Shown: positions 21,247 to 62,920 of the stretch, piece after piece
How the letters are laid out: every line of letters begins with the position of its first letter
How positions within the stretch are numbered: position 1 is the stretch's first letter
Origin: Haliovirga abyssi
GTDB taxonomy: Bacteria > Fusobacteriota > Fusobacteriia > Fusobacteriales > Haliovirgaceae
DNA: 64,000 nt
Reading direction: 5' to 3'
Assembly: GCF_030295325.1 (NCBI RefSeq)
Contig: NZ_AP027059.1
Coordinates: 2,104,637 to 2,168,636, forward strand
The notes under the pieces: generated by a model
The model's database searches: none
Told to the model about the DNA's origin: nothing
The model's input: the letters and a program-made list of their open reading frames with translations, nothing else
Program-made: the position numbers and the translations under genes

Positions 21247-21348
21247 AAGAACGTTTAAAAAATAATGTTCTCATATTTTGTTATAAAAACGCTTAAAACA
21301 TTGCGTATTTTAAAACAAAACGGGAATGTTATTTTTAAGCCATTCCTA
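21247..21348. repeat. Family A palindromic repeat, copy 1
   Basis: Ends AAGAACGTTTAAAAAATAA and TTATTTTTAAGCCATTCCT are imperfect inverses and enclose TTTTGTTATAAAAACGC facing GCGTATTTTAAAACAAAA. The whole 100 bp can form one long hairpin. It follows the argG 3' end. Confidence 0.9.
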
Positions 21349-21355
21349 AAGCACA

Positions 21356-21386
21356 TTTAGGGAAAAGCCACGTGCTTTTCCCTAAA
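21356..21386 (-). terminator. Hairpin after argG
   Basis: Perfect 12-bp stem TTAGGGAAAAGC / GCTTTTCCCTAA about 15 nt after the argG stop. The T run behind it is weak, so it may be a terminator or an RNA 3'-end stabiliser. Confidence 0.7.
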
Positions 21387-21401
21387 TACAATCTTTTCTA
21401 T

Positions 21402-22619
21402 CTATTTTTTCTTATTTTTTAACATTGCTCTTACTTTTAACGGCAATCCAAATAATCTTATAAATCCATTAGCATCTTTTTGATCATATAATTCTGTATC
21501 TGCAAATGATGCAATCTCCTCAGAATATAAAGAATAATCTGATTTTGTACCTGCCAATACTATATTTCCTTTATATAGTTTCAATTTTACTGTTCCAGTT
21601 ACTGTTTCTTGAGTAACATTTACAAAAGCATCTAACGATTCTCTTAATGGAGTAAACCAAGTCCCATTATAAACTATTTCTGCATATTTTTTAGATATTA
21701 ATTCTTTATAATGTAAAGTTTCTTTATCCAAACAAAGTCTTTCCAATTCATTATGTGCATAATAAAGAATTGTTCCACCTGGAGTTTCATATACTCCACG
21801 AGATTTCATTCCTACTAATCTGTTTTCCACCATATCTATTTGACCAATTGCATTTTCTCCACCTATTTTATTTAATTTATCCATTAATTCTACTGCACCT
21901 AATTTTTCTCCATCAATAGATACAGGCTCTCCTTTTTCAAATCCTATTTCTATATATGTAGGCTTATCTGGTGCTTCTTCTATTGTTTTTGATAACATAA
22001 ATATATTATCTTTTGGTTCATTATAAGGATTTTCTAAATCTCCACCTTCATGAGATATATGCCATAAATTTCTATCTCTTGAATAAATTTTCTCTTTTGT
22101 TTGCTCCAATGGTATCTTTCTCTCTTTTGCATAATCAATAGCTGCTTCTCTTGATGTTAATGTCCATTTATCATCTTTCCAAGGAGCTATTATTTTTAAT
22201 TCTGGATTTAATGCCATATATCCAAGCTCAAATCTAACTTGATCATTTCCTTTTCCAGTAGCTCCATGTGCTACTGCATCTGCTCCCTCTTTTAATGCTA
22301 TTTCAACTTGTTTTTTAGCTATTAATGGTCTTGCAAATGAAGTTCCCAACAAATATTTCCCTTCATAAACTGCACCTGCTTTAAGTGTTGGCCATACATA
22401 TTCTTTTAAGAATTCTTCTCTCAAATCCTCTATATAAATTTTAATTGCTCCTGTTTCTATTGCTTTTTCATTTAAATGGTCTAGCTCTTCGCCCTGCCCT
22501 AAGTCAGCAGCAAAAGCTATAACTTCACAACCATAATTTTCTTTTAACCACGGTATCATTACTGAGGTATCTAATCCTCCAGAATATGCAAGTACAACTT
22601 TTTTTATTTTTTTATCCAT
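21402..22619 (-). CDS. argG: Argininosuccinate synthase
   Basis: This 405-residue enzyme joins citrulline and aspartate with ATP in arginine synthesis. It shows the N-type ATP pyrophosphatase loop AYSGGLDTS (about residue 10), [13 protein letters not shown] (about 117) and [17 protein letters not shown] (about 175), all as in ArgG. Length is normal. It is the last gene of the run ilvE-argF-argG. A Family A palindrome separates it from argF, so the two may be one mRNA with a processing hairpin. No argH lies in the window. Confidence 0.97.
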
Positions 22620-22669
22620 TTTTTACCCTCCAAATTTATTTTTGATAAATTTAAGCTCTAACACAACTC

Positions 22670-22770
22670 AAGAACGTTTAAAAAATAATGTTCTCATATT
22701 TTGTTATAAAAACGCTTAAAACATTGCGTATTTTATAACAAAATGGGAATGTTATTTTTAAGCCATTCCT
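22670..22770. repeat. Family A palindromic repeat, copy 2
   Basis: Starts AAGAACGTTTAAAAAATAATG and ends TTATTTTTAAGCCATTCCT; nearly identical to copy 1. It fills the argF-argG gap. Confidence 0.9.
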
Positions 22771-22792
22771 AAAAGCCCTTCTTTTTCTTAAT

Positions 22793-23728
22793 TTATCCCA
22801 TTATCAAAGCCATTATTGCTTTTTGTGCATGAAGTCTGTTTTCTGCTTCATCAAAAACAACTGATTGTGCTCCTTCTAATACCTCATCAGTAATCTCTTC
22901 CCCTCTATGAGCTGGTAAACAATGCATAACTATAGCATTTTCTTTTGCCATTCCTAATACTTTTGAATTTATTTGATAATCTTTCAAATCTTCAAATCTT
23001 TTTTTCATCTCTTCTTCTTTTCCCATGCTAACCCATATATCAGTATATAAAGCATCAGAACCTTTCACAGCTTCCTCTATATTGTCAGTGATAACTATTT
23101 TAGCTCCTGATTTTTTAGCAAATTTATTTGCTGTTGCTAAAATTTCATCTGTTGGTTGATATCCTTTTGGACATGCCAAAGATATATCAATTCCCATAAT
23201 ACTACTTCCAATTAATAAAGAGTTTGCAACATTAGCAGCATCTCCTATATATGCTATTTTTAATCCTTCTAATTTATGAAATTTTTCTCTCATAGTTTGA
23301 AAATCTGCCATAATTTGGCAAGGATGAAATTCATCTGTAAGTGCATTTATCACTGGTACATCTGAATATTTAGCCATCTCTTCTACAATCTCTTGTCCAT
23401 AAGTTCTTATCATTATTCCATCTACATATCTTGATAAAACTCTTGATGTATCTGCAATTGTTTCGCCTCTCCCTATTTGAATATCTCTAGAACTCAAATG
23501 AAGAGCTTCTCCACCTAATTGAGCCATTCCAACCTCAAATGATACTCTTGTTCTAGTAGATGATTTCTCAAATATCATTGCTAAAGTTTTTCCTTTTAAC
23601 ATCTCTTCTCTTATGCCTATTTTATGTCTCATTTTAATAAAATCTGCTGTATCTAAAATTTGAATTAATTCTTCCTTTGTAAAATCTTCTAATTTCAAAA
23701 AATGTCTTCCCTTTAAACTAACTGCCAT
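22793..23728 (-). CDS. argF: Ornithine carbamoyltransferase
   Basis: This 311-residue enzyme makes citrulline from ornithine and carbamoyl phosphate. Signatures are the carbamoyl-phosphate loop SSTRTRVSFE (about 55), HPCQIMAD (about 136) and the ornithine-binding MHCLPAHRGEE (about 268). Next to argG it is more likely biosynthetic (ArgF) than the catabolic arcB form. It starts 20 bp after ilvE and is co-transcribed with it. Confidence 0.96.
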   Translation of the reverse strand: MAVSLKGRHFLKLEDFTKEELIQILDTADFIKMRHKIGIREEMLKGKTLAMIFEKSSTRTRVSFEVGMAQLGGEALHLSSRDIQIGRGETIADTSRVLSRYVDGIMIRTYGQEIVEEMAKYSDVPVINALTDEFHPCQIMADFQTMREKFHKLEGLKIAYIGDAANVANSLLIGSSIMGIDISLACPKGYQPTDEILATANKFAKKSGAKIVITDNIEEAVKGSDALYTDIWVSMGKEEEMKKRFEDLKDYQINSKVLGMAKENAIVMHCLPAHRGEEITDEVLEGAQSVVFDEAENRLHAQKAIMALIMG

Positions 23729-23748
23729 ATTGTATCACTCCTTATTTT

Positions 23749-24672
23749 TTAAACATTATTTATAAATGTCAACCATCCATATTTATCTTCTTCTCTTCCT
23801 TCTACTATATCAAAAAATCTTTTTTGAATTTTTTCTGTTATAGCTCCTCTTTCCCCTGTTCCAATCACTATTTTATCTACACTACTTACTGGTGTAACTT
23901 CTGCTGCTGTCCCAGTAAAGAATAGTTCATCTGCTATATATAGCATTTCCCTTGGTATCCCTTGTTCTCTTATTTCATACCCTAAATCATTTGCTATTTT
24001 AATAATAGAATCTCTAGTAATTCCAGGTAAAGCTGATCCATTCATAGCTGGAGTATAAATAATCCCATTTTTTATTACAAACAGATTTTCTCCGCTTCCT
24101 TCACTTACATATCCATTATAATCTAAAGCAATCCCTTCATCATATCCATCTTCTAAAGCTTCCATTTTTATCAATTGAGAACTTAAATAATTTCCACTTG
24201 CTTTTGCCATAGTTGGCATTGTATCTGGTGCAAGCCTTCTCCAAGAAGATATTTTAACTTTTACCCCTTTTTTCATTGCCTCTTCTCCAAGATATTTCCC
24301 CCATGTCCAAGCAGCAATCATTACATCAACAGGGCAAGTTTTAGGATTTACTCCTAATTGATTATATCCTCTATATACAAGTGGTCTTATATATGCTTCT
24401 TCTAAATTATTAATATTTAATGTATCCATCATTGCTTTATTAACTTCTTCTTTAGTAAATGGAACCTCTGTTCTATATATTTTAGCACTATCAAATAGCC
24501 TATCTGTATGTTCTTTCAACCTAAATATTGCACTTCCTTTAGGAGTTTTATAACACCTTATTCCTTCAAAAAAACCTGATCCATAATGCAAAACGTGTGA
24601 AAGTACATGTACTTTTGCCTCATCATGTTCTACAAATTTTCCATTCATCCAAATCTTACCACTATCTATCAT
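23749..24672 (-). CDS. ilvE: Branched-chain amino acid aminotransferase
   Basis: This 307-residue PLP class IV aminotransferase performs the last step of Val/Leu/Ile synthesis. It has the [20 protein letters not shown] start, GSGFFEGIR (about 33), the PLP-lysine region [15 protein letters not shown] and [11 protein letters not shown], and the EGSGENLFV motif (about 191). Length is standard. It begins 80 bp downstream of the sensor kinase gene and precedes argF by 20 bp, linking branched-chain and arginine synthesis in one transcript. Confidence 0.95.
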
Positions 24673-24751
24673 CTTTATTATCCCCTTTCAAGAATTTGTA
24701 CTACTATTATATCACACCATTTTTCTTTTTTCAATCTAAATATTTTTGCTT

Positions 24752-26086
24752 TTATATTGGCAAATACAATCTAAATTCAGTTCCTCTATTAACTTCTGAT
24801 TCGACTTCTATATACCCATTATGACTTTCTATTATCTGCTTACAAATAGCTAATCCTAATCCAGTTCCTGTAGATTTTGTAGTATAAAAAGGCTCAAATA
24901 TCTCTTTTATTATCTCTTTTGGAATCCCACTTCCATTATCTTCTATTTTTATTTCAATATAACTATCAATTTTCACAACTCTCACCTTAATCTTTTTATC
25001 ATCTCTTTTCTTTAATGCTTCCATACTATTATTTATCAAATTAATCAAAACTTCCTTTATCTTTTCATTATCTAAAGATACTATCTTATTTTCCGCTAAT
25101 TCATAACTTAATTCCACTATTCTTTCATCATATAAATAAACAATATCTTTCATAAATTCAAATAAATTAACCTCATTCTTTTCTATTTTAATACCCTTTG
25201 TATATTCCAATATTTCATTTGATAATTTTTTCAATCTATTCGTTTCCTCTTTTAATACTTCAGAATATTTTCGTAACTTTTCATCATTAATTATTTCTAA
25301 TTTTTCTAATCTAAATTGCAAAAGCTGCAACATTCCGCTAATTGAATTTAAAGGATTTTTTATCTCATGTACTATTTTTGCAGCCATATTCCCAACTAAT
25401 TCTAACCTAGTTTTTCTAAATTTATTTATAACCAACATTCTATTATGAATGACTAATCCCAATTGCATTCCTACTACTTTCAAAAAATTAACTTCATCTA
25501 TTTCAAAAATCTTATTATTCTCTCTCTCGCTTAAATTTATAACACCAATAATATCATTTCCATGTTTTATGGGTATCGATGCAAATGAATTACTATTATA
25601 GCTCATTTTGTTTTTCATATTCAAATCCAATTCTATATCTTTTGCATAGATTATTTCTCCTTTTTCATATACTTTTCCTGCAATTCCTTCTCCAGGAATT
25701 ATTCTTATTTTATTTTTTATATTTTCATCTATCCCCAAAGAGCCAGCTATAAATAATTTTCCATCATCGCCTAACAATAATATACTTCCTTTTTTAGATT
25801 TAAACAGTTCAGAAATAATAGAAATTACTTCATCAAATATATCTTTATACTCTTCACTTCCATTAACAATATAACTTATTTTAAATAACACTTCTTTTCT
25901 TACTAACTCATTTTCTATATATTCATATTTTTTTTCTAATCTATTTTCTAATTCTGAAATTTTTAGAGTTTTTGTATCTTTTTCTAAAAATTTTGAAGAT
26001 AATTTTATAACTCTATTTTTTAATTTAAGATATATTTTTATAAGTAATATTATTATTATTAATTCTATAATCATAATTATTAACAT
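24752..26086 (-). CDS. Orphan sensor histidine kinase with GAF domain
   Basis: The 444-residue protein has an N-terminal TM helix (about residues 2-20), a short coiled coil, a GAF domain (about 60-205, with the GEGIAGKVYEKGE motif) and a kinase core: H-box KIVHEIKNPLN (His 240), N-box NLINNSMEAL, G1 DNGSGIPKEI, G2 GTGLGLAI. With no periplasmic loop it probably senses a cytoplasmic ligand. No response regulator gene is adjacent. It has its own TATAAT promoter and may read into ilvE-argF-argG. Confidence 0.93.
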   Translation of the reverse strand: MLIIMIIELIIIILLIKIYLKLKNRVIKLSSKFLEKDTKTLKISELENRLEKKYEYIENELVRKEVLFKISYIVNGSEEYKDIFDEVISIISELFKSKKGSILLLGDDGKLFIAGSLGIDENIKNKIRIIPGEGIAGKVYEKGEIIYAKDIELDLNMKNKMSYNSNSFASIPIKHGNDIIGVINLSERENNKIFEIDEVNFLKVVGMQLGLVIHNRMLVINKFRKTRLELVGNMAAKIVHEIKNPLNSISGMLQLLQFRLEKLEIINDEKLRKYSEVLKEETNRLKKLSNEILEYTKGIKIEKNEVNLFEFMKDIVYLYDERIVELSYELAENKIVSLDNEKIKEVLINLINNSMEALKKRDDKKIKVRVVKIDSYIEIKIEDNGSGIPKEIIKEIFEPFYTTKSTGTGLGLAICKQIIESHNGYIEVESEVNRGTEFRLYLPI

Positions 26087-26123
26087 TTATACGCCCCCAT
26101 TTTTTTATAATATTCAATATTTA

Positions 26124-26152
26124 ATTATACTCTATATTAATTCCAATTTCAA
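26124..26152 (-). promoter_or_regulatory. Promoter of the sensor kinase gene
   Basis: Minus strand TTGAAA, 17-nt spacer, TATAAT, about 40 nt before the start. Confidence 0.75.
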
Positions 26153-26164
26153 ATAAAAAAATGA

Positions 26165-26200
26165 TGTATCTTATTTTCTAAATAAATTTATAATTTCCTA
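26165..26200. repeat. Half copy of Family B repeat
   Basis: CTTATTTTCTAAATAAATTTATAATTTCCTA matches the right end of the Family B copies at 29886-29918 and 59572-59602. It abuts a Family A copy. Confidence 0.6.
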
Positions 26201-26202
26201 CT

Positions 26203-26305
26203 AAGGAACGTTTAAAAAATAAGTTTCTTCTATTTTGTTATAAAAACGCTTAAATTATTGCGTATTTTAAAACAAAATGGGGATGTTATTTTTAAGCCAT
26301 TCCTA
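26203..26305. repeat. Family A palindromic repeat, copy 3
   Basis: Starts AAGGAACGTTTAAAAAATAAG and ends TTATTTTTAAGCCATTCCT, with the same ATAAAAACGC / GCGTATTTTAAAACAAAA core. It lies between the amylase terminator and the sensor kinase promoter region. Confidence 0.9.
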
Positions 26306-26310
26306 AATAA

Positions 26311-26345
26311 AAAAAGCTACTAACTTTTCAATTAGTAGCTTTTTT
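26311..26345 (-). terminator. Terminator of the alpha-amylase gene
   Basis: AAAAAGCTACTAA / TTAGTAGCTTTTT stem and T run just after the stop at 26349. Confidence 0.93.
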
Positions 26346-26348
26346 ATA

Positions 26349-28139
26349 TTATTCTTGTACCCAAACTGATGCAGAACCTCCATTTACTTTAAATTCTCCC
26401 CATCCATCTGAATTTGTATAAACTTTATCTGTCCTATTTCCTAAGTAATCATAAAATACTGCATTTGGTCTTCCTACGTCCATCCATTTACTTCCAGAAC
26501 CGCCATCAGTTAATATAACTGCCATAGCTTTAGAATGTGTTGCATCTCCTAATCTTGTCCAACCTATTACATCCCAATTATCCAAATAATCTTTTTGCAC
26601 TCCATAAGCATATAATTTTCTTGCTTTTATAATTTTACTCAAATTTGAAACAGGTGCCATATTTATATTATGCCCTTTATCAGTATAACTTGCTCCATAT
26701 ACATCTGGATAAAATACGCATGGATATCCTTCTTGTCTTAATAATATTATTGAATAAGCTAATGGTTTAAACCACCATTCCACAGGCGACTCTAAAGCTT
26801 GTAACGGTTGTGTATCGTGATTATCAACTATTGTCACTGCTTTGCTTGGATTATCTTTCATTAGAGTTCCATTTAAAATGTTTCTCATATCATAATTTCC
26901 ATTTGATTTTGAAGCACTATAAAAATTCATATGTAACGGTGCATCAAATAATGATATAACCCCTGATGTTTTTGTAATATAATTTTCTAATTTACCTACA
27001 TCATAGTTCCAATATTCTCCAACTGTGAATAATTCTTTTCCTGTTGCACTTCTTTCATAATTTACCCAATCTTTAAAAAAGCTAAATTTTATATGTTTTA
27101 CTGCATCAAGTCTAAATCCATCAACTCCCGTTGTGTCTACATACCATTTTCCCCAATTTTTAAGTTCTTGAACCACTTCTGGATGATCCATATCCAGATC
27201 AGCATACATTAAATAATCATAATTTCCATTTTCTCCATCTACTTCCCAATCCCAGCCTTTTCCTGTTCCGTCAAATCTAAAAATAGCTTTTTCTTTTGCA
27301 CTATCATCCCAATCCACTCCATCAAAGTGGTACCATCTCCATTTAAATGAAGAATATTTATTGTTTCTTCCAGGAAAATCAAATTTTGTCCATGCACTTA
27401 TCATTCTAGTTCCTAATTCTAAATTTCTATTATTCCAATCCACTTTTGTTGCTTCTACTGTTTCTGTAGCATCTGCTCCTCCACGATGATTAAAAACTAT
27501 ATCTCCATAAACTTGCAATCCTGCACTATGAGCATTACTAATAGCATTTATATACTGATCTTTAGTCCCATATTTTGTTCTAATAGTTCCTTTTTGATTA
27601 AATTCTCCCAAGTCATACATATCATAAACCCCATACCCTACATCTGATGCTCCACCTGCTCCTTTATATGCTGGTGGAAGCCAAAGAGCTGTAATTCCCA
27701 TCTTAGATAGATTAGAAGCCTCTGTTGAAACTTTATTCCATAAACTTCCATCTGCAGGATAATACCAATGAAAATATTGCATCATTGTTCCATTTATTGC
27801 AGTTGGTGTTGGCGCTGGTGCAGGTTCTGTAACTTCTGTAACTGAAATATTATGAGTGTCATCATAAAATGTAATTTTATATGTCTTATAATCAGTTACT
27901 TGATAATCTTGTGCTGGATAATTTTCACTCCAGTCTCCATAATGGTCAATTTTAAATCTTGCTGGTGAACTTTCCCCATTAAATGTCACCTCTGTTTGCC
28001 ATGTGTTTGTTGAAATTTTGCTCATAGCTGTTGTTCCCCAACCATTTGCTGTACCTCTAAAATATGCTTGAGTCCATTCAGATCCACTTGCTATAAAAGT
28101 CATTAAAACCAATAAAATACCTACATAAATTTTCCTCAT
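26349..28139 (-). CDS. Secreted alpha-amylase, GH13 (subfamily 5-like), with N-terminal starch-binding-like domain
   Basis: This 596-residue enzyme hydrolyses alpha-1,4-glucans outside the cytoplasm. A signal peptide (about 1-19) leads into a beta domain (about 20-105, FRGTANGWG) resembling starch-binding modules, then a Pro/Ala/Thr linker and the GH13 barrel. Catalytic residues are visible: nucleophile Asp 345 (GFRLDAVKH), acid Glu 375 (GEYWNYD), Asp 442 (VDNHDTQ); the DIVFNHRGGADATE segment is typical of the liquefying-type GH13_5. A C-terminal beta domain ends in VWVQE. Monocistronic, with promoter and terminator. Confidence 0.93.
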   Translation of the reverse strand: MRKIYVGILLVLMTFIASGSEWTQAYFRGTANGWGTTAMSKISTNTWQTEVTFNGESSPARFKIDHYGDWSENYPAQDYQVTDYKTYKITFYDDTHNISVTEVTEPAPAPTPTAINGTMMQYFHWYYPADGSLWNKVSTEASNLSKMGITALWLPPAYKGAGGASDVGYGVYDMYDLGEFNQKGTIRTKYGTKDQYINAISNAHSAGLQVYGDIVFNHRGGADATETVEATKVDWNNRNLELGTRMISAWTKFDFPGRNNKYSSFKWRWYHFDGVDWDDSAKEKAIFRFDGTGKGWDWEVDGENGNYDYLMYADLDMDHPEVVQELKNWGKWYVDTTGVDGFRLDAVKHIKFSFFKDWVNYERSATGKELFTVGEYWNYDVGKLENYITKTSGVISLFDAPLHMNFYSASKSNGNYDMRNILNGTLMKDNPSKAVTIVDNHDTQPLQALESPVEWWFKPLAYSIILLRQEGYPCVFYPDVYGASYTDKGHNINMAPVSNLSKIIKARKLYAYGVQKDYLDNWDVIGWTRLGDATHSKAMAVILTDGGSGSKWMDVGRPNAVFYDYLGNRTDKVYTNSDGWGEFKVNGGSASVWVQE

Positions 28140-28179
28140 TTTTAATTTCCCCTTTCATTTTTTCATTCTCCCTAATATA

Positions 28180-28208
28180 TTTATACCACCTTTTTTATGT
28201 TTTGTCAA
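28180..28208 (-). promoter_or_regulatory. Promoter of the alpha-amylase gene
   Basis: Minus strand TTGACA, 17-nt spacer, TATAAA, about 40 nt before the start. Confidence 0.8.
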
Positions 28209-28287
28209 CAACTTTGGTTAATTTTTAATCTTTTTATGCTCTTTTTCTTCTCTGTGTCCTGTTTGCGGACGTAATTTTTTATTTTTA

Positions 28288-28312
28288 TAAAAAAATAAGC
28301 TACACTTTATAC
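28288..28312. repeat. Left part of an IS-split Family B repeat
   Basis: AAAAAATAAGCTACACTTTAT equals the left end of the intact copy at 59466; the rest continues after the IS at 29789. Confidence 0.8.
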
Positions 28313-29788
28313 TGTACCCTATAAGATGGACATTTAAAAAAAAGTTGCATCAGATATGGTATTTTTATATAATATCTATAATGTTAATTTAATAGATTGG
28401 AGGATTTCATGAGCAACAAAATATTCACAAAAAAAGAGATTGAAATTTTATCAAAAAATAAATATGTCAAAACTATAAGTTCTAAGGCAATCACATATAC
28501 ATCAGAATTCAGAAGAATTTTTATTGCAGAAAGTCAAGATAAAATTTTACCTAGAGCAATATTTGAAAAATATGGATTTGACGTACAAGTATTAGGGATG
28601 AAAAGGATTCGATCAGCAGCAGCAAGATGGAGACGTGCCTATAAAGAGCAAGGAGTATTAGGGTTAGATGATAGAAGAAAAGAGAACTCTGGACGACCTT
28701 TAGAAAGAGAGCTATCTTTAGAAGAGAAATATGAAAGGCTTCAAGTAAAAAATGATTATCTTCAAGCGGAGATTGATTTGCTAAAAAAGCTAGACGTGCG
28801 AGAAAGAGAGGTGAACGGTAAATTAATTGAATTATCGCCATCAGAAAAGTTTGTTATAATCAAAGATGTAATAGAAACAAGTGGTGTAAAAAATATTATA
28901 AAATATTTATGTGAAGTTGCAGAAATTTCTAGAACAAGTTATTATAACTATTTGTCTGAAACTTCCAAAACAAATAAAAGCAATCAAGAATTAGAAGATG
29001 AAAAAGCAAGAGATTTAATCATAAAAGCATATGAATTCAAAGGTAGGCAAAAGGGAGCTAGACAGATAAAAATGACTTTAGAAAATGAATTTGCTACAAT
29101 TTTTAATCTGAAAAAAATCAGAAGAATTATGAAAAAATATAGTATTGTATGTACGATTAGAAAGGCAAATCCTTATAAGAGAATAGCAAAGGCTACAAAA
29201 GAGCATACAACTATTCCAAATAAATTGAATAGGGAATTTAAACAAGAAATACCAGGGAAAATATTATTAACAGATATAACATACCTATCATATGGTAATG
29301 GTCAACGTGCGTATTTATCAACTATTAAGGATAGTTCAACAGGAGAAATACCTGCATATGTATTATCTAAAAATATTAAGTTAGAAATTGCAACAGAAAC
29401 AATAAGAACTCTTATGGAAAACAAAAGCTTTAAAATTCATAAGGATGCATTAATACATTCTGATCAAGGAGTCCATTATACAAGCCCAACATTTCAAAAA
29501 TTAGTTAAAAATAGTGGCTTAGATCAGTCAATGTCAAGAAGAGGTAATTGCTGGGACAATGCTCCTCAAGAATCATTTTTTGGCCACTTTAAAGATGAAG
29601 CAAATATTAAAGAATGTAATACATTTGAAGAATTAATTAATGAGATTGATGATTATATGGATTATTATAATAATTATAGATGTCAGTGGGGATTAAAAAA
29701 GATGACTCCTATAAAATATAGAAATCATCTTTTAGAAAATAAATCAGCTTAACTACTTTTTTTTTAAATGTACTTGACAAAGGGTACA
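28313..29788 (+). mobile_element. IS3-family (IS150-like) insertion sequence
   Basis: Terminal inverted repeats are visible: left TGTACCCT...ACATTTAAAAAAAAGT (28313-28345) and right ACTTTTTTTTTAAATGTAC...AGGGTACA (ending 29788). The element is 1476 bp with one transposase gene. It sits inside a Family B palindrome whose two halves flank it. CTTTAT on the left and CTTCAT on the right may be a diverged target duplication, a few bases outside the TG...CA ends. Confidence 0.9.
28409..29752 (+). CDS. IS3-family transposase, single uninterrupted ORF
   Basis: The 447-residue protein joins an N-terminal helix-turn-helix part (about 1-110, with the basic AAARWRRAYKEQG segment), a coiled coil (LEEKYERLQVKNDYLQAEID) and a DDE integrase core: Asp in LLTDITYLSYG, Asp in HSDQGVHYTSP, Glu in NAPQESFFGHFK, then YNNYRCQWGLKKMTPIKYR. 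Most IS3 elements need a -1 frameshift between orfA and orfB; here both parts are in one frame. ATG at 28409 has GGAGG 6-10 nt upstream, better than the TTG at 28397. The only plus-strand gene in the window, apparently intact. Confidence 0.94.
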   Translation: MSNKIFTKKEIEILSKNKYVKTISSKAITYTSEFRRIFIAESQDKILPRAIFEKYGFDVQVLGMKRIRSAAARWRRAYKEQGVLGLDDRRKENSGRPLERELSLEEKYERLQVKNDYLQAEIDLLKKLDVREREVNGKLIELSPSEKFVIIKDVIETSGVKNIIKYLCEVAEISRTSYYNYLSETSKTNKSNQELEDEKARDLIIKAYEFKGRQKGARQIKMTLENEFATIFNLKKIRRIMKKYSIVCTIRKANPYKRIAKATKEHTTIPNKLNREFKQEIPGKILLTDITYLSYGNGQRAYLSTIKDSSTGEIPAYVLSKNIKLEIATETIRTLMENKSFKIHKDALIHSDQGVHYTSPTFQKLVKNSGLDQSMSRRGNCWDNAPQESFFGHFKDEANIKECNTFEELINEIDDYMDYYNNYRCQWGLKKMTPIKYRNHLLENKSA

Positions 29789-29921
29789 GATTACTTCATC
29801 TCGTAAAACATAAATATTTTTCTAAATTTTTGGGTTCTGAAAAATTTTGCTTTGAAAAATTGCATATTTCAAAAAAACGGCGTAGCTTATTTTCTGAATA
29901 AATTTACACTTTCCTATTAAA
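29789..29921. repeat. Right part of the IS-split Family B repeat
   Basis: TCTCGTAAAACATAAATA through GGCGTAGCTTATTTTCTGAAT matches the intact copy at 59490-59600 with point differences. Confidence 0.82.
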
Positions 29922-29931
29922 TCAAAAACAT

Positions 29932-37612: not shown

Positions 37613-37714
37613 AAAGAATGTTTAAAAAATAATGTTCTCATATTTGTTTGTAAAAATGCTTGAAACATTGCATATTTTATAAACAAATAGAAAGGTTATT
37701 TTTAAACCATTCCT
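37613..37714. repeat. Family A palindromic repeat, copy 4
   Basis: Starts AAAGAATGTTTAAAAAATAATG and ends TTATTTTTAAACCATTCCTA; core TTTGTTTGTAAAAATGC / GCATATTTTATAAACAAAT has paired changes. Its end touches the stop codon (TAG) of the STAS gene and its start lies 14 bp from the yicC ATG. Confidence 0.9.
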
Positions 37715-38172: not shown

Positions 38173-38275
38173 AGGAACATCTTAAAAATAACATCTCTAT
38201 TTTGTTTAAAACAGGCAACTATTTACTCATTTTTATAACCAAATATAAGAAACTTAGTTTTTAAATGTTCTTTAA
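38173..38275. repeat. Family A palindromic repeat, inverted and diverged copy
   Basis: Starts AGGAACATCTTAAAAATAACAT and ends GTTTTTAAATGTTCTTTA, which is the family consensus read on the opposite strand, with a changed core. Confidence 0.7.
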
Positions 38276-42321: not shown

Positions 42322-42382
42322 GCTATCAAAGAATAGCTAAAAATAATATACTCAAATTTAGATATTATTTTTAAGCCATCCC
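42322..42382. repeat. Short Family A-type hairpin in the rpoB-rpoC gap
   Basis: GAATAGCTAAAAATAATA faces TATTATTTTTAAGCCATCCCT around an AT loop; the 3' half has the Family A end. A full copy follows directly. Confidence 0.7.
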
Positions 42383-42383
42383 T

Positions 42384-42485
42384 AAAGAACGTTTAAAAAA
42401 TATTTTTCTTATATTTTGTTATAAAAATGGTTGAAATATCACATATTTTAAAACAAAATCTAAATGTTATTTTTAAGCCATTCCT
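42384..42485. repeat. Family A palindromic repeat, copy 5
   Basis: Starts AAAGAACGTTTAAAAAATA and ends TTATTTTTAAGCCATTCCT, placed between rpoB and rpoC, within one operon. Confidence 0.9.
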
Positions 42486-47160: not shown

Positions 47161-47170
47161 ACTTCTATAT

Positions 47171-47262
47171 AAAAAACCTTCGCAAAGACACGAAGGTTAA
47201 TCAAAGTTCCTACCCTGAATACCTCGGCAGGAAATTAAGCAATGCACCTGCTGTCTTTGGTT
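47171..47262 (-). promoter_or_regulatory. Ribosomal protein L10 leader with attenuator
   Basis: Minus strand reads AACCAAAGACAGCAGGTGC, then CTTAATTTCCTGCCGAGGT, the conserved core of the L10(L12)4-binding leader, followed by a terminator hairpin AACCTTCG-TGTCTTTG-CGAAGGTTTTTT. It lies between rplA and rplJ. Repression by L10/L12 is known for this element. Confidence 0.92.
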
Positions 47263-47302
47263 ATAGAACGGTTTAAAAATAGAATATTCCCAAACCATTC
47301 TT
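47258..47302. repeat. Short Family A-type hairpin after rplA
   Basis: AGAACGGTTTAAAAATAG faces CCCAAACCATTCT, a short version of the Family A ends, overlapping the 5' side of the L10 leader. Confidence 0.6.
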
Positions 47303-50045: not shown

Positions 50046-50092
50046 TGAACGTTTAAAAATAAAGTTACCTTACTCTTTAAACAATTCTTTAA
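50046..50092. repeat. Short Family A-type hairpin in the 23S-5S spacer
   Basis: GAACGTTTAAAAATAAAGTTA faces CTTTAAACAATTCTTTA. The end GAACGTTTAAAAA equals the Family A start. Confidence 0.55.
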
Positions 50093-50165
50093 TATTCTTT
50101 TTTTAAAAAGAGATTCAAAATTGTATAGTAATATTACAAGCAGTTTTAATCAAAGAAACTATTTA

Positions 50166-54824: not shown

Positions 54825-54853
54825 ATATTACCACACTTATCTCATTTTGTCAA
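54825..54853 (-). promoter_or_regulatory. rRNA operon promoter
   Basis: Minus strand consensus TTGACA, 17-nt spacer, TAATAT, about 95 nt before mature 16S, with an A/T-rich tract upstream. Confidence 0.92.
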
Positions 54854-55088
54854 ATACTTTTTTTGCATTTTTTTATATTTTTACATAACATCCTTTGAAA
54901 CCTTTTAAAATCAACGGATTATTCAACTTTATTTTTTCGATATATTTGATTTCTTCAATAAATATATTTTATTTTTTATTAAAATAAATATGCTTTTTTT
55001 ACTTTTTTATCCCAAACACTACTTTTACACTTAAAAAATAAAAATAATAAAAACATTATAAACATTAATACTTTTTTATTTTTTTATA

Positions 55089-55123
55089 CAAAAGTCTTCT
55101 ATACACTAATGTATAGAAGACCT
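55089..55123 (-). terminator. Terminator of metE
   Basis: GTCTTCTATACAT / GTGTATAGAAGAC stem with a following TTTTGTAT tract, directly after the stop at 55128. Confidence 0.92.
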
Positions 55124-55127
55124 AAAA

Positions 55128-57404
55128 TCAAATCTCTTTTCTAATTTCTTTTACAGATGCAACCATATTTTTTAGACTTTTTATAGCTTCTGATTCTGCT
55201 CTAGTTTTTAGTCCACAATCTGGATTTATCCACAATTTGTTAAGATCATTCTTTTCTATAATCTTTTTTATAACAATCTTAAATTCATCTATCCCAGGTA
55301 CTCTTGGAGAATGAATGTCATATACGCCAGGCCCTATCTCTTTATCATAATTATTTTCTGCCAACACATCTAACATTGATAAATCAGATTTTGCAGCTTC
55401 TATAGTAATTACATCTGCATCCATAGATTTTATTTCAGATATTATATCTTCAAATTCACTATAACACATATGCGTATGAATTTGCGTTTTTAAATCAACT
55501 TTAAAATTAGTAACTTTGAAAGCTTTTATAGCCCAATCTAAATATTTTTCTTTCCAATCCTTCTTTCTAATTGGTAATTTTTCTCTTAGTGCAGCTTCAT
55601 CTATTTGAATGATTTTTATGCCTGCTCTTTCTAAGTCTAAAACCTCTTCTTGGATAGCTAATCCTATTTGATACGCTATCTCTTCTAATGGTAAATCCTC
55701 TCTTGGAAACGACCAATTTAATATTGTTATAGGACCAGTAAGCATTCCTTTCAAAGGTTTTTTAGTTAAACTTTGAGCATAGCTTATCCAATCTACTGTA
55801 AACGCTTTTTTCCTTTTTATATCCCCAAAAATTATTGGTGGTTTTACCCCTCTTGTTCCATACGACTGAACCCATCCATTTTCCGTTATTAAAAAACCTT
55901 CTAAATATTCTCCAAAATACTCAACCATATCAGTTCTCTCAAATTCTCCATGAACCAATACATCTAAATCAATTTCTTCTTGTATTTGTATTACATTTTT
56001 GATTTTTTCTTTTATATACATTTCATATTCTTTGGAATTTATATCACCATTTTTATATTTTCTTCTAATTTTTCTAATTTCAACAGTTTGAGGAAAAGAA
56101 CCTATTGTTGTAGTTGGTAATTTCGGTAAATTCAACACCTCTTTTTGTTTTATAATCCTCTCTTCAAATTTTTCTTTTCTATTAAAATCTTCTTCTTTTA
56201 GAACTTTAACCTCATTTCTAACATCTTCAAATTGAAATTCAGCCAATTCTTTCTTATCTTTTATTATTCCTTGATTTTGGATAAATTTTGAATTCTCTTT
56301 ATAATTTTCGTCACAAAACAGTTCTTTTAACTCTTCTAATTCTTTTAATTTTTCTTCTGCAAAAGCTAAATATCTTTTATACTTTTTAGCTAACTTAGTT
56401 TCACTTTTTAACGTATATGGCACATGCAATAAAGAACACGATGTGTTAATTACCAAAGTATATTTTTTTATCTTATTCAATATATCTATGCTTTTTTTAT
56501 AATCATTCTTCCAAATATTTTTTCCATTTACTAAACCAACAAACAAAGTTTTATTTTCTGAAAATCCATATTTATCAATTAATTCTAAATTTTTTTCTCC
56601 CTCTACAAAATCTAATCCAATTCCATAAAAATTTAAATCCAACAACTCTCTATATATATCTCTTACATCTCCAAAATAGGTTTGCAATATTATTTTAAGT
56701 TTTGACTCATCTTTCAAAATTTCATTATAAATAAGTTTAAAATTCTTAATATCTTCTTCTGTTAAATCTGTAACTAATATAGGTTCTTCTATTTGTAGAT
56801 ACTCAACTCCTAATTCATTTAATTTATCTATAACTTCAATATAAGCAGATGTTAACATCTGTACATACTCATCATAACTTTCCTCTGAACTAATTTTAGA
56901 TAACTTCAAAAACGTTAATGGGCCAATCAGAACCGGTTTTGTATCCACTCCTATCTTTTTAGCCTCTAAATATTCATAAAAGATCTTATTTCCATTTAAC
57001 TTAATTTCCATATCTTTTTTCAATTCAGGAACCAAATAATGATAATTTGTATTAAACCACTTTTTCATAGCTAACGCTTTTACATCTTTGTTTCCACTTT
57101 GATATCCTTTAGCCATAGCAAAATATGTGTCTAATTCATTCAATCCTAGCTCTTTATATTGTGTAGGTATCGCATTAATCAATATCATCGTATCTAACAT
57201 AGTATCATAATATGAAAAATCATTTGATGATATAAATTCTATTCCATTGTTTTTTTGAATTTTCCAATGTCTTTCTTTTAATTTTTTTGCTTTTAATTCT
57301 AACTCATTTTGACTAATTTCATTTTTCAAATAGCTCTCTACCAATTTTTTTAGTTCTCTTTTTTCTCCTATTCTAGGAAATCCTATTGTCGAAATTTTAA
57401 CCAT
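55128..57404 (-). CDS. metE: Cobalamin-independent methionine synthase
   Basis: The 758-residue enzyme transfers methyl from 5-methyl-THF-triglutamate to homocysteine without B12. N-terminal domain ISTIGFPRIGEKRELKK; C-terminal catalytic domain with TTTIGSFPQT, the zinc ligands in IHTHMCYSEFED and NPDCGLKTR, and PGVYDIHSPRVP. Length is standard. The leader carries a cobalamin riboswitch, so it is expected to be off when B12 is available. GGAGGAG precedes the ATG, which overlaps the stop of a 30-codon ORF. Confidence 0.98.
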   Translation of the reverse strand: MVKISTIGFPRIGEKRELKKLVESYLKNEISQNELELKAKKLKERHWKIQKNNGIEFISSNDFSYYDTMLDTMILINAIPTQYKELGLNELDTYFAMAKGYQSGNKDVKALAMKKWFNTNYHYLVPELKKDMEIKLNGNKIFYEYLEAKKIGVDTKPVLIGPLTFLKLSKISSEESYDEYVQMLTSAYIEVIDKLNELGVEYLQIEEPILVTDLTEEDIKNFKLIYNEILKDESKLKIILQTYFGDVRDIYRELLDLNFYGIGLDFVEGEKNLELIDKYGFSENKTLFVGLVNGKNIWKNDYKKSIDILNKIKKYTLVINTSCSLLHVPYTLKSETKLAKKYKRYLAFAEEKLKELEELKELFCDENYKENSKFIQNQGIIKDKKELAEFQFEDVRNEVKVLKEEDFNRKEKFEERIIKQKEVLNLPKLPTTTIGSFPQTVEIRKIRRKYKNGDINSKEYEMYIKEKIKNVIQIQEEIDLDVLVHGEFERTDMVEYFGEYLEGFLITENGWVQSYGTRGVKPPIIFGDIKRKKAFTVDWISYAQSLTKKPLKGMLTGPITILNWSFPREDLPLEEIAYQIGLAIQEEVLDLERAGIKIIQIDEAALREKLPIRKKDWKEKYLDWAIKAFKVTNFKVDLKTQIHTHMCYSEFEDIISEIKSMDADVITIEAAKSDLSMLDVLAENNYDKEIGPGVYDIHSPRVPGIDEFKIVIKKIIEKNDLNKLWINPDCGLKTRAESEAIKSLKNMVASVKEIRKEI

Positions 57405-57496
57405 TATTTCTCCTCCGTTTTTATTATTTTTTTACTTTTCATTACACTTATAAAAATAATAAAACAGAGGGAAAACAAAAACTTTTCACACCTCAT
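57404..57496 (-). CDS. Possible 30-residue leader ORF ahead of metE
   Basis: ATG at 57494-57496 has AAGGTGG six nt upstream. The frame encodes MRCEKFLFSLCFIIFISVMK, then a Lys-rich end, and stops in TAATG, where the metE ATG begins. It lies between the riboswitch and metE, and spans the candidate terminator. It may couple translation to metE or be chance; no homologue is known to me. Confidence 0.4.
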   Translation of the reverse strand: MRCEKFLFSLCFIIFISVMKSKKIIKTEEK

Positions 57497-57514
57497 AATA
57501 TACCACCTTCCCTC
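57455..57514 (-). terminator. Candidate riboswitch-controlled terminator
   Basis: GAGGGAA and TTCCCTC arms (57508-57514 and 57467-57473) enclose a 34-nt loop and are followed on the minus strand by TGTTTTATTATTTTT. It could be the expression platform of the B12 switch. Confidence 0.5.
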
Positions 57515-57585
57515 CGAAGTTTTAAGAAATCTAAAAAGCAAATCCTATTTTTATGTTTTTTAGTTCTTAAAATAGAATTACTTTT

Positions 57586-57752
57586 TATAAATTAGGTAAG
57601 TCTCCTGACTTCGCATCATTCTCCCTTTCACCTTCCCAGATATTATATTTATCCAGTGGTATTTAAAAGTTCGTCCACGTCACAGTAGCGGGGGCTGCTC
57701 TAGATTTTCGCTAGATTCCTTGTTATGCTTTTTACAGCACCTAATTTATATT
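57586..57752 (-). promoter_or_regulatory. Cobalamin (B12) riboswitch
   Basis: Minus strand shows the closing stem ATAAATTAGGT / ACCTAATTTAT, AGCAGCCCCCGCTACTGTGA, CCACTGG, GGGAAGG and the B12 box AAGTCAGGAGACTTACC in the right order. It lies about 90 nt before the leader ORF and 180 nt before metE. Confidence 0.95.
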
Positions 57753-57756
57753 TTGC

Positions 57757-57785
57757 ATTATATCAGAATTAGTTGATTAAGACAA
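57757..57785 (-). promoter_or_regulatory. metE promoter
   Basis: Minus strand TTGTCT, 17-nt spacer, TATAAT, just upstream of the riboswitch. Confidence 0.83.
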
Positions 57786-57843
57786 TAGTCTAATGTAAGA
57801 ATATTTTAAAAGTTTAAAAATCTTTAGAGAACATTTAAATTAC

Positions 57844-57872
57844 AAAAGGAGCGTTATAAATAACGCCCCTTT
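57844..57872 (-). terminator. Terminator of eno
   Basis: AAAGGGGCGTTAT / ATAACGCTCCTTT stem with T-rich tail, about 35 nt after the stop. Confidence 0.88.
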
Positions 57873-57906
57873 CGCATAACACCTTATATTCGTTTATTAA
57901 TATTGA

Positions 57907-59214
<1,308 letters not shown>

Positions 59215-59392
59215 CTATTTTTTTAGTCTTCTTAGAAATTACGAAGACTTATGTTATTGCTATTTTTCTATTTAGAAATAACTTAAAAACAATTAATCAA
59301 TTTAATAATAGAATATTAAACATCTTAAATATTTTTATAATTAAATTTGAGAAATTATTCCTTAAGCATTCTTTCATGTTCTGAGCAATTCA

Positions 59393-59421
59393 ATTTTAAC
59401 ACATTTTAATATCTATGTAAA
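59393..59421 (-). promoter_or_regulatory. Promoter of eno
   Basis: Minus strand TTTACA, 17-nt spacer, TAAAAT. This gives a leader of about 190 nt. Confidence 0.65.
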
Positions 59422-59465
59422 GTAATTTTTTTCTCAATCTTTTTCAATTTTTCCTCTATTGTAAT

Positions 59466-59605
59466 AAAAAAATAAGCTACGCTTTATCTAGTAAAATATA
59501 AATATTTTTCTAAATTTTCAGCTCCTAAAAAATTTTGCTTTGAAAAATCAGATATTTCAAAAACAGCGCAGCTTGTTTTCTGAATTAATTTATATTTTCC
59601 TAGCA
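59466..59605. repeat. Family B palindromic repeat, intact copy
   Basis: AATAAGCTACGCTTT at the left faces AACAGCGCAGCTTGTT at the right; the inside reads TAAATATTTTTCTAAATTTT, then AAAAAATTTTGCTTTGAAAAAT. The same order of blocks flanks the IS at 28288-28312 and 29789-29921. Confidence 0.85.
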
Positions 59606-59612
59606 AATTAAA

Positions 59613-59642
59613 AAGAAAGCCTACTTTTCAGCAAACTTTCTT
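59613..59642 (-). terminator. Terminator of the DUF4912 gene
   Basis: AAGAAAGTTTGCTG / AGTAGGCTTTCTT imperfect stem followed by a T run; about 35 nt after the stop. Confidence 0.75.
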
Positions 59643-59674
59643 AATTTTTTCATTTTATCATTATCTTTTAACTA

Positions 59675-60949
59675 TTATACTTCGTTATCTACTTTTTTCT
59701 TAGTTCTATCAACCACAGGTGTAGCTCTTCTAACTTCATCTCCATCTGCAGATACTGCAACTACAGGTAATTCATAATGCCCAATCGGCAAAGCATATCT
59801 ACAACTAAATGTCCCGTCTGAATTTAATTTCACTTCTCTTCCCATAACCGTTAATTTAGCATCTGGTTCTGTTGCTCCATATAAGATTAGTTCTGTACCA
59901 ACTTTTAGCCAAAAATCTTTATTTTTTCCATTATCTTTTTCAATATTTCCTTTTGTTGCTTCTCCTTGTGAAATACTTAAGCTTCCAGCCGATAAACTTC
60001 CCACTGATAAACTTCCTGCGCTAATACTTCCTGCTGTTATTGATCCCATTGCATTTTCTAAATGAGCAATCAATTTCTCTCTTCTTACTCCTTTTTCTAA
60101 AAATAATTTTTTTAATAAAAGGGCAACCATTTGCTCAGAAGAACCAAGAACTGCTCCAGAAGCTCCCATTCCACCTATCCATTCTCCATTTACAATTCTT
60201 CCTGCTGCTGATTTATCTAATATTTTTTTGAAATATTCTTCTACTATCATCCACTCTTCATCTACAACATTAGATATTTGATTACTTGGAGTTCCTACAC
60301 TATTCGATCTTGATAATGTTATAAATTCATTATTAGAAGTTTTTAATCCTATATCTGCAATATAGGTAGCTTTTGGATTTAATCCTCCTATAAACCATTC
60401 TCTTACACCATCTGGCAACTCTACATCAAAATAATTATTTGCATTTGTTCCATCAAATTCTTTTAAAGTCACATCATACATTCTAATTGTAGGTTTTGAT
60501 GCCTTTATATTCTCTTCTCCATATTGTTGTTTTGTTTTGTCAAAAACTTCTTGACTTATTTCCCAATACGCATATGCCCATTGAGGATTTTTTGGCATTA
60601 ATACTATTTTATTATCTCCATACCCTTCTGGCAACGGATCTCCATCAAAAAATACTGATCTTAGTCCCTCTTCTTTTTTTGTTTGTATATTTTCACCTGT
60701 TGTTCTATTTGCTAAAGAAACATCCAAACTAGATGGCAATACTTTGTCTGATGATCCTCCACCTACCATTGGTGTTCCTAAATCTAAAATTTCAGCTTCT
60801 ATTTGTGTTTTACCTTCATCTAAAATAATAGAAGATAGAGCACTAAAAAGTTCCTCTTTTGTCATTTCAGTTCTACCTTTTACTTGATATTCCCTTGCTA
60901 ATTCATATAACTCTTCTTTTGTTAAGTTTTTTAAATTTTCAATTTTCAT
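59675..60949 (-). CDS. DUF4912 protein with Rho_N-like start and serine-rich pentapeptide tract
   Basis: 424 residues. The start KIENLKNLTKEELYELAREY resembles the Rho N-terminal SAP-like helices (about 1-45). The centre holds a DUF4912 domain (about 95-230, NPQWAYAYWEIS and the REWFIGGLNP segment). At about 300-325 five-residue units S-(I/L)-(S/T)-(A/V)-G repeat five times, a probable surface or linker. A C-terminal beta domain carries YGATEPDAKLTVMGREV. Function unknown. ATG at 60949 follows GGGAGGAAC; an 11-codon longer frame is rejected. Confidence 0.85.
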   Translation of the reverse strand: MKIENLKNLTKEELYELAREYQVKGRTEMTKEELFSALSSIILDEGKTQIEAEILDLGTPMVGGGSSDKVLPSSLDVSLANRTTGENIQTKKEEGLRSVFFDGDPLPEGYGDNKIVLMPKNPQWAYAYWEISQEVFDKTKQQYGEENIKASKPTIRMYDVTLKEFDGTNANNYFDVELPDGVREWFIGGLNPKATYIADIGLKTSNNEFITLSRSNSVGTPSNQISNVVDEEWMIVEEYFKKILDKSAAGRIVNGEWIGGMGASGAVLGSSEQMVALLLKKLFLEKGVRREKLIAHLENAMGSITAGSISAGSLSVGSLSAGSLSISQGEATKGNIEKDNGKNKDFWLKVGTELILYGATEPDAKLTVMGREVKLNSDGTFSCRYALPIGHYELPVVAVSADGDEVRRATPVVDRTKKKVDNEV

Positions 60950-61006
60950 AATTGTTCCTCCCATTCTAAATTTTAGGATCACAAATTGTCCTAAAAAAGC
61001 ATCTAT

Positions 61007-61035
61007 ATTTTACTATATTTAAATATTATTGTCAA
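61007..61035 (-). promoter_or_regulatory. Promoter of the DUF4912 gene
   Basis: Minus strand TTGACA, 17-nt spacer, TAAAAT, about 55 nt before the start. Confidence 0.82.
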
Positions 61036-61069
61036 ATAACTTAAAAATATATTTTTACCTAATATAATA

Positions 61070-61103
61070 ACTGCCACGAACTATAAATTCATGGCAGTTT
61101 TTT
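61070..61103 (-). terminator. Terminator of hydE
   Basis: ACTGCCATGAA / TTCGTGGCAGT stem about 10 nt after the hydE stop, T-rich downstream. Confidence 0.88.
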
Positions 61104-61113
61104 ATATTTTTAT

Positions 61114-62190
61114 TTACATTTTTTTCTTATTTTTATAATGCAGCGAGTCTCCCCATTCTCCGTATCCTATTTTATCTCCTACTCCTTTTATTCTGTTTTC
61201 CAAACAAGCTTTACATTCAACAGCGTTATCATCAATACAAGGTTTGTTATCATAAAGTTGATAATCTTTTCTATAATTTTTATGCGTTATCACTGGCATT
61301 ATAATATTTGCTCCTGCTTTTAATCCAGCTTCTCTTCCAACGGGATTTAAAGCTTGTAGTGCTGTTGTAGCCGCTATATTTATATCTTTCAAATAAATTC
61401 TTGTTAAAGCTATCATTTTTAATCCTAATTCAAATCTCTTTTTCTTTATCTCTTTTGAATTTTGAGCTATTTCTCCTATTGGCGTTTTTTCACTAACAAT
61501 ATATGGGCCCATTCCTATCATATCTATGTCCATATCTTTAAAAAACAGTATGTCATCCACTAAATCTTCTTCTGTTTGTTCTGGAAGACCTATCATTACT
61601 CCTGTACCTACTTGATACCCTATTTTTTTTAAATCTTTCAAACAGTTTATTCTAGTTTCAAATTTATGATCTGCAGGATGTAATTTATTATACAGCTCTT
61701 TATTAGATGTTTCTATCCTCAATAAATAACGATGTGCCCCTGCATTATACCATTTTTCATACGTTTCAAATGTTTGTTCTCCTAAAGATAAAGTAATTCC
61801 TAGCTCTCCATTACTTAATTTCTTAATTTTTTCTATCAAACCAGTTACAAATTCAATATATTCTTCATCTTGTCTTTCACCCGATTGCAAAACAAGAGAG
61901 CCATAACTGTTTTCATATGACCATTTAGCACTTTCCAAAATCTCTTCTTCACTCATAGTAAATCTGTGGACATCGCTATTACTTTTTCTTATCCCGCAGT
62001 AATTACAATTTTTTTGACAAATATTACTAAACTCTATAATCCCTCTATAATAAACTTTATCTCCTACATTATCTAATTTTATTTTATATGCTTTTTTATA
62101 TAATTCTTTTAATTTTTCTTCATTTTCTTCTTTCATAAAAGATAATATTTCATTTCTCCCAAGCTCTTTTTCATTTGATACACTACTCAT
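61114..62190 (-). CDS. hydE: [FeFe]-hydrogenase maturase HydE (radical SAM)
   Basis: This 358-residue enzyme helps build the diiron part of the H-cluster. The radical SAM motif ICQKNCNYCGIR (Cys near 60-67), the LQSGERQDEEY and LSLGEQTFETYEKWYNAGAHRYLLR (in part) segments, GTGVMIGLPEQTEEDL and IMPVITHKNYRKDYQLY fit HydE rather than BioB or ThiH. ATG at 62190 with AAGGTGG is preferred over the GTG 9 nt earlier. HydF and HydG must lie elsewhere. A small ferredoxin gene precedes it. Confidence 0.93.
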   Translation of the reverse strand: MSSVSNEKELGRNEILSFMKEENEEKLKELYKKAYKIKLDNVGDKVYYRGIIEFSNICQKNCNYCGIRKSNSDVHRFTMSEEEILESAKWSYENSYGSLVLQSGERQDEEYIEFVTGLIEKIKKLSNGELGITLSLGEQTFETYEKWYNAGAHRYLLRIETSNKELYNKLHPADHKFETRINCLKDLKKIGYQVGTGVMIGLPEQTEEDLVDDILFFKDMDIDMIGMGPYIVSEKTPIGEIAQNSKEIKKKRFELGLKMIALTRIYLKDINIAATTALQALNPVGREAGLKAGANIIMPVITHKNYRKDYQLYDNKPCIDDNAVECKACLENRIKGVGDKIGYGEWGDSLHYKNKKKM

Positions 62191-62354
62191 TTTTACCACC
62201 TTGCCTTTTTTTATTTTATTTCCATCTATATATTTTGAATCGCCAAATAATATTCGCAGGAATTACAATTCAAATATACATACGATTTCAACAATAAAAT
62301 TATAACATATTTTTTTATTATTTTGAACTATTTTTTATAAAAAAAGTAAACAAT

Positions 62355-62606
62355 TTAGTGAGTGCCGCAACTGCAACTAGAGCCAGAAAAAGCTTTCATT
62401 ATGCTTTCATCAGTTCCATCAAAATAATTTATAACTTTTTCAGTACAAATATCACTACATTTTGTACATCCTACAGGACATTTTTCAGAATTAATTAAAT
62501 TTATTTGATTATTTTCATTCACTAAAAGTCCTAAAGGACAAACTACCACACACGCCATACATTTTGTACATTTTCCACTAATTATAGGATACCAATTTTT
62601 TGCCAT
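62355..62606 (-). CDS. Small 2[4Fe-4S] ferredoxin-like protein
   Basis: 83 residues. Two cluster motifs: CTKCMACVVVCP (about 13-24) and CPVGCTKCSDIC (about 43-54), the second with a CxxxC spacing at its start. A C-terminal CSCGTH tail adds two more Cys and one His, which could bind another metal. It starts at the ATG at 62606 after GGAGGG. It lies 165 bp upstream of hydE and could supply electrons to it or serve hydrogenase; this is inference. Confidence 0.88.
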   Translation of the reverse strand: MAKNWYPIISGKCTKCMACVVVCPLGLLVNENNQINLINSEKCPVGCTKCSDICTEKVINYFDGTDESIMKAFSGSSCSCGTH

Positions 62607-62757
62607 TTTTCCCTCCAAATTTTATTTTTTTATTTCCTAAAGTTTTTTTATCTTATATCGATAAATATAATATCCAAAGATATATCTCCCCGATGTATCT
62701 TAAAGAATGTTAAAAATTACAGAAATAGTATTTTTAACATTCAAATCCATGATATTT

Positions 62758-62791
62758 AGAAGAATAGGGCTTTTACCAGCTCTATTCTTCT
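62758..62791. terminator. Hairpin downstream of the HemZ-like gene
   Basis: AGAAGAATAG / CTATTCTTCT stem with a 14-nt loop. It may end the HemZ transcript or form part of the ferredoxin leader. Confidence 0.55.
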
Positions 62792-62819
62792 ATAAAAACA
62801 TCCCGTTTCGGATGATTTA

Positions 62820-62920
62820 AAGAACGTTTAAAAAATAAGTTTCTTGTATTTTGTTATAAAAACGCTTTAATCGTTGCGTATTTTATAATAAAATGATAAG
62901 GTTGTTTTTAAATCGTTCCT
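62820..62920. repeat. Family A palindromic repeat, copy 6
   Basis: Starts AAGAACGTTTAAAAAATAAG and ends TTGTTTTTAAATCGTTCCT; core ATAAAAACGC / GCGTATTTTATAATAAAAT. Confidence 0.88.

Follow-up and report, generated by a model that had tools for sequence, protein, structure and literature searches.

A MITE-like family of 99-bp palindromic elements dispersed through the genome of the fusobacterium Haliovirga abyssi

The repeat unit of pneumococcus (RUP) is a 107-bp MITE, a non-autonomous DNA transposon, with about 108 intergenic copies and IS630-Spn1 as its proposed mover (PMC2229807). The repeat family described here from Haliovirga abyssi resembles RUP in being about 100 bp long, intergenic and non-coding, with terminal inverted repeats and a target duplication (PMC2229807); compared by description, it differs in that its target is 3 bp within YTWAR and no parent was found, whereas RUP uses a TA target and has an IS630 parent. 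The Correia/NEMIS elements of Neisseria and the ERIC elements of enterobacteria are likewise short intergenic hairpin MITEs co-transcribed with their neighbours (PMC2229807), for which RNase III or RNase E effects have been reported, whereas the present family is known from DNA alone. It also approaches the Rickettsia palindromic elements (105-146 bp) in size (PMC2229807), and the REP/BIME sequences associated with RAYT in consisting of high-copy intergenic palindromes near gene 3' ends, but it departs from REP/BIME in its 99-bp unit, its 3-bp duplications and the lack of any RAYT found in the genome. For most bacterial repeats called MITEs, an autonomous insertion sequence (IS) sharing their ends is missing or was unsought (PMC2229807).

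A further comparison is offered by the IS1031 subgroup of the IS5 family (e.g. ISLrh), which makes a 3-bp duplication at TNA and has 17-bp terminal repeats starting GAAC (PMC12016507). The family shares with this subgroup a TNA-like 3-bp duplication (TAA and TTA dominate and TCA is seen) and a GAAC-type repeat start, but the rest of the terminal-repeat letters differ and minority duplications of TAT, ATA and TTT occur. The IS3-type elements of this genome make 3-bp duplications as the IS1031 subgroup does, and profile searches of the genome with PF01609 and PF13586 gave no match and hence no IS5-type transposase with family ends. An affiliation with IS5/IS1031 is only a lead.

The window analysed is a 64,000-nucleotide stretch of the H. 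abyssi genome (GCF_030295325.1, contig NZ_AP027059.1, positions 2,104,637 to 2,168,636), and its copies are listed in Table 1. The six good copies of the initial annotation are all present, 1-2 bases from the starts it gave, as is the inverted, diverged copy that it placed at 38173. Of its short versions, those between rpoB and rpoC and beside the L10 leader are real short forms, but the one reported at 50046 is weak. The ends it described as common to the copies were recovered with one small correction, the adjoining TAA being target-site duplication (TSD). The L10 ribosomal protein leader (window positions 47161-47301) is overlapped at its 5' end over 14 nt by the adjoining short form.

Table 1. 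Family copies in the window and locations of the IS3-like element
Feature	Position	Strand	Flanks	Location and remarks
45-bp short form	18289..18333	+	TSD TTA/TTA	missed by the initial annotation
99-bp element	21248..21346	+	TSD TAA/TAA	gap from argG to SurA/PPIC-type foldase gene
99-bp element	22671..22769	+	TCA/TAA (inexact duplication)	argF-argG gap
99-bp element	26205..26303	+	TSD TAA/TAA	gap from alpha-amylase-type gene to histidine kinase gene
99-bp element	37615..37713	+		STAS-yicC; one end at STAS stop, other adjoins yicC start region
Diverged 98-bp element, inverted	38174..38271	-	TSD TAA/TAA	rpoC-STAS gap
53-bp short form	42330..42382	+		rpoB-rpoC intergenic; joins next copy via a common TAA
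99-bp element	42386..42484	+	TSD TAA/TAA	rpoB-rpoC intergenic
37-bp short form	47265..47301	+	TSD TAT/TAT	5' end of L10 leader
Possible degenerate short form (weak)	50056..50097	+		single end, by eye; unrecovered in end-pair search
99-bp element	62821..62919	+	TSD TAA/TAA	between two radical SAM genes
IS3-like element	window 28397-29752	+		
IS3-like copies	C1:1187069, 1604797, 2133885, 2170007, 2324773; C2:104083, 178672, 225512			

The covariance-model search of the genome and its relatives that had been proposed in the initial annotation placed the family far beyond the window. A model of the 99-bp family trained on 33 copies detected at least 132 copies at E<=0.001 across both replicons (61 on the plus and 60 on the minus strand of C1; 4 and 7 on C2), a lower bound, as 150 of 9780 candidates were scored with the model. 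With up to two mismatches allowed, the 2.73-Mb genome contains the 18-base left end 192 times, against 8 times for the reversed pattern. The repeat family is thus genome-wide and far above chance, and confinement to the window, which the initial annotation had named as a refuting outcome, does not apply. With the same model it was absent from 97 other genomes of the phylum, all from other families, the source genome being the only positive one among the 98. The window's 16S rRNA gene shares 84-86% identity with those of Ilyobacter, Fusobacterium and Cetobacterium, and this distance, together with the placement of the 97 other genomes in other families, marks a deep-branching fusobacterial lineage. 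As far as tested, the MITE family is confined to this deep, isolated lineage. Exact-pattern searches of viral contigs and genome contigs and a blastn search against plasmids did not find it, and Rfam had no match at family copies; judged from Rfam, papers, plasmids, and viral and genome contigs, it is apparently undescribed so far.

The 99-bp unit, GGAACGTTTAAAAAATAA...TTATTTTTAAGCCATTCC, consists of terminal inverted repeats of about 18 bp, which carry GGAAYGKYTWAAAAATAA at both ends, and an inner inverted repeat. Comparison of the copies together with their flanks shows that the element begins with GGAA or AGAA and finishes with TTCC, with three matching bases on either side. Reading frames entering the element meet in-frame stops close to both ends, and the family is short, non-coding and bounded by terminal inverted repeats, as MITEs are by definition. 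Family ends also delimit sequences of 35-62, 146 and about 200 bp. The 146-bp form has a longer loop and about 15 loci; it was considered as a relic of the parent and rejected, as its loop has 15 matches, and each match inspected proved to be an element of about 146 bp or a remnant of one. Many of the 35-62-bp forms have matching 3-bp flanks (16 of 31 end pairs lying 30-60 bp apart), but no two are alike, and mobility is not claimed for them because they all differ and resemble private internal deletions.

Evidence for mobility comes from the flanks. An exact 3-bp direct repeat borders 93 of the 119 intact-ended copies. Among non-nested copies the duplication is present in 74 of 95, where shuffled flanks gave 28 and never more than 39 in 2000 shuffles. 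The excess persists when TAA/TAA copies are excluded (35 of 56, with 11 by shuffling and at most 22 in 5000 shuffles); duplications of other lengths show no excess. The same flank reading, applied as a control to this genome, recovered 3-bp duplications at 8/8 IS3-like and 8-bp duplications at 3/3 IS6-like elements. Most duplications at family copies are TAA or TTA, and since TTA/TTA, TAT/TAT, ATA/ATA, TTT/TTT and TCA/TCA also occur, TAA belongs to the target and not to the element. The target YTWAR is found at 38 of 74 sites against a background of 2%, and the right flanks additionally favour T at +4 (78%) and A at +5 (68%), beyond the prediction for a symmetric target.

Copies have also inserted into one another. 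In about 17 intact composites a second element lies at the apex of the first, in the arrangement aaaaacgcTTAA[inner]TAAaccattgcg with TAA duplicated, and most composites have an outer duplication of their own (e.g. TAT/TAT, TAG/TAG, GCA/GCA). The uninterrupted loop of ordinary copies represents the empty site for these nested insertions, from which the empty-site evidence is drawn, within one genome of the species and family. The inner copies belong to few types that are hardly seen as single elements, suggesting that composites probably also moved as units. Among copies of exactly 99 bp, the nearest relative is at least 97% identical in 35 of 76 and identical in 11 of 76.

The TSDs, the insertions of copies into one another and the near-identity of copies at dispersed sites make it very probable that the family is a non-autonomous DNA transposon (MITE), and they bear out the MITE-like character proposed for it initially. 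The family has recently spread across both replicons, where it occupies at least 132 sites. Its movement would have been due to a transposase, supplied in trans, that recognised the terminal repeats, made a 3-bp staggered cut at the target and integrated the element there, as DDE transposases do; the source IS may since have been lost, or may have escaped recognition.

An IS with the same ends, which had been suggested as a check, was not found in the families and the approximately 600 kb searched: searches for rve-type, IS200, DDE_Tnp_1 and DDE_Tnp_1_2 proteins revealed no insertion sequence or transposase with family ends, and paired family ends up to 3.5 kb apart in the 600 kb enclosed no IS. 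A 2.26-kb candidate parent (C1:1744201-1746463), picked up when unusual or unpaired ends were examined, is an ABC exporter operon and not an IS. The PF00665 search recovered the IS3-like (8 copies) and IS6-like (3 copies) elements, and these rve-type elements were rejected as parents on account of their ends, TATACTGTACCC and GGTAGTGTCAAA, which are unlike those of the family. The sole Y1 transposase found belongs to an IS200 element whose ends also differ from the family ends.

This Y1 gene, 0.85 kb from a family copy, bears on the other affinity suggested in the initial annotation, that of a REP/BIME system with a RAYT (Y1) transposase as its mover. Palindromic, intergenic, close to gene 3' ends and present in more than 100 copies, the family has the outward features of such a system. 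The Y1 protein is, however, an IS200 TnpA (NCBIfam IS200, 161.7 bits, cut-off 55) that scores 31 bits against REP_Tyr_transpos, where the cut-off is 80, so that the proposed search for a RAYT-type transposase yielded none. Family copies carry 3-bp duplications, which Y1 transposition is not known to make, and a REP-like tetranucleotide-tagged 20-40-mer unit is absent. The REP/BIME reading is therefore almost certainly wrong.

A second alternative is that an unfamiliar enzyme acts on the folded hairpin, in which case the 35-53-bp forms would be mobile units themselves. Their possession of both ends with matching 3-bp flanks would fit such an enzyme, as would the invariable position of nested insertions at the apex and the failure of the searches made to find an autonomous partner. 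However, the short forms differ from one another in the way expected of private internal deletions that retained the old flanks, and the apex has a TTAAA target and is the sole spot where an insertion keeps the outer ends usable, which makes this enzyme very unlikely. Equally little credence is given to its fuller version, a self-contained hairpin transposition with a minimum of about 35-43 bp, in which a hairpin-recognising enzyme would work without a recognisable IS parent and land at stops and at the elements' own tips.

The distribution of copies relative to genes agrees with a MITE inserting at TWA. In approximately 600 kb of stretches picked for holding copies, with simple gene calls made for this analysis, 0/132 copies lie inside ORFs, unlike the situation in Rickettsia, whose palindromic elements also insert in frame into proteins. 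Gaps between co-directional genes hold 115 of the 132, and 30 of these 115 are no more than 6 nt from a stop codon, against 7 expected from uniform placement in the gap, while 8 are 25 nt or less from a start codon, against 26 expected. The stop codon at the junction is often the duplicated TAA, or TA completed by the element's first base, as in the STAS-yicC copy, where the STAS stop TAG, read on the minus strand, consists of host TA and the element's first G. Reads entering the element usually meet a stop within about 12-15 nt.

Copies that hit genes would have been removed by selection, whereas those at TAA stops would have survived, as the duplicated TAA, or TA with the element's G or A, remakes the stop, and a read into either element end would usually meet TAA within about 12 nt. 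The TWA target together with selection against damage accounts for the stop-codon bias, and a regulatory role is unneeded. The positions within operons reported initially were located in rpoB-rpoC, argF-argG and STAS-yicC. Copies in rpoB-rpoC and argF-argG have to be transcribed through, and are therefore unlikely to be strong terminators.

A role in mRNA, in which the hairpin was spread by mobility and then kept because the operon transcript folds and is cut or blocks an exonuclease, setting gene levels, was weighed against these results. Copies in co-directional gaps lie antisense to the transcript more often than sense (73 against 42, p=0.005), and the sequence folds well beyond shuffles as RNA on both strands (z -8.6 and -6.8; single-stranded DNA, z -5.7). 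Among 50 diverse copies, 89.5% of cells are paired, against 47-56% in slid controls, with 10.5% of 1987 cells unpaired; cells changed on both sides number 46, against 23.9 by shuffle, and the covariation score is 0.123 against 0.097. The outer terminal repeats keep their sequence, and the inner stem persists as a stem with some letters changed, including in diverged lineages (e.g. TTTGATAAT/ATTATCAAA).

The matched arm changes noted initially are thus real and exceed both kinds of control, but one-side and broken cells are several times commoner than both-side cells, and the stretch between the terminal and inner repeats is frequently unpaired. Compensatory changes show no excess over single ones, an outcome that the initial annotation had named as refuting, since single and breaking changes outnumber them, and the selection for a hairpin that had been read from the matched changes does not follow. 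The arms of quasi-palindromes can correct each other by template switching, so covariation alone is no proof of selection on RNA. Location in operons is likewise no evidence for an mRNA role, because every copy in a co-transcribed gap gets transcribed, and the TWA target accounts for the bias towards stop codons. Retention for an mRNA role is accordingly considered unlikely. For a MITE, the arms may remain complementary because both ends need recognition and palindromes readily undergo template-switch correction, and a benefit from an RNA hairpin is not required to explain the family.

Long self-repeats considered as transposons proved instead to be duplications of a VgrG-like gene (C1:1635218-1636686 with 2276640-2278108, 97.9% over 1469 bp) and an S41-peptidase-like gene (C1:2019196-2020706 with 2038696-2040206, 95.7% over 1511 bp), names given from the translated sequence and not from a family search. 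In both, homology is lost at a family copy, and the S41 duplicates differ from each other within the element; in this sample, chosen around copies, the pattern suggests that recombination between family copies may have taken place at the two duplications.

Other repeats occur in the same genome. The IS3-like element (1486 bp) is present in 8 copies that are nearly identical and flanked by 3-bp duplications, often CTT/AAG; several of them sit within another dispersed repeat (AAGCTACRCTT ... GATGAAG). This second dispersed repeat family, seen in the window at 29794-29928 and 59482-59614 (84-87% alike), is seemingly a preferred landing site of the IS3-like element. The IS6/IS240-like element (1797 bp, ends GGTAGTGTCAAA, 8-bp duplications; C1:1120138, 2010919 and 2046808) encodes a protein in which cysteine pairs in the N-terminal half suggest zinc ribbons. 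A 234-bp tandem repeat of 4.3 copies at about 507.8-508.8 kb of C1 is possibly protein-coding, its period being divisible by 3.

The family illustrates cleanly how a preference for TWA targets and a 3-bp duplication together turn stop codons into safe landing sites, such that hairpins near stop codons need not imply regulation. It also counsels caution, as arm-matched changes in a mobile palindrome are weak evidence of a selected RNA structure. In H. abyssi the family probably also supplies portable homology for rearrangement.
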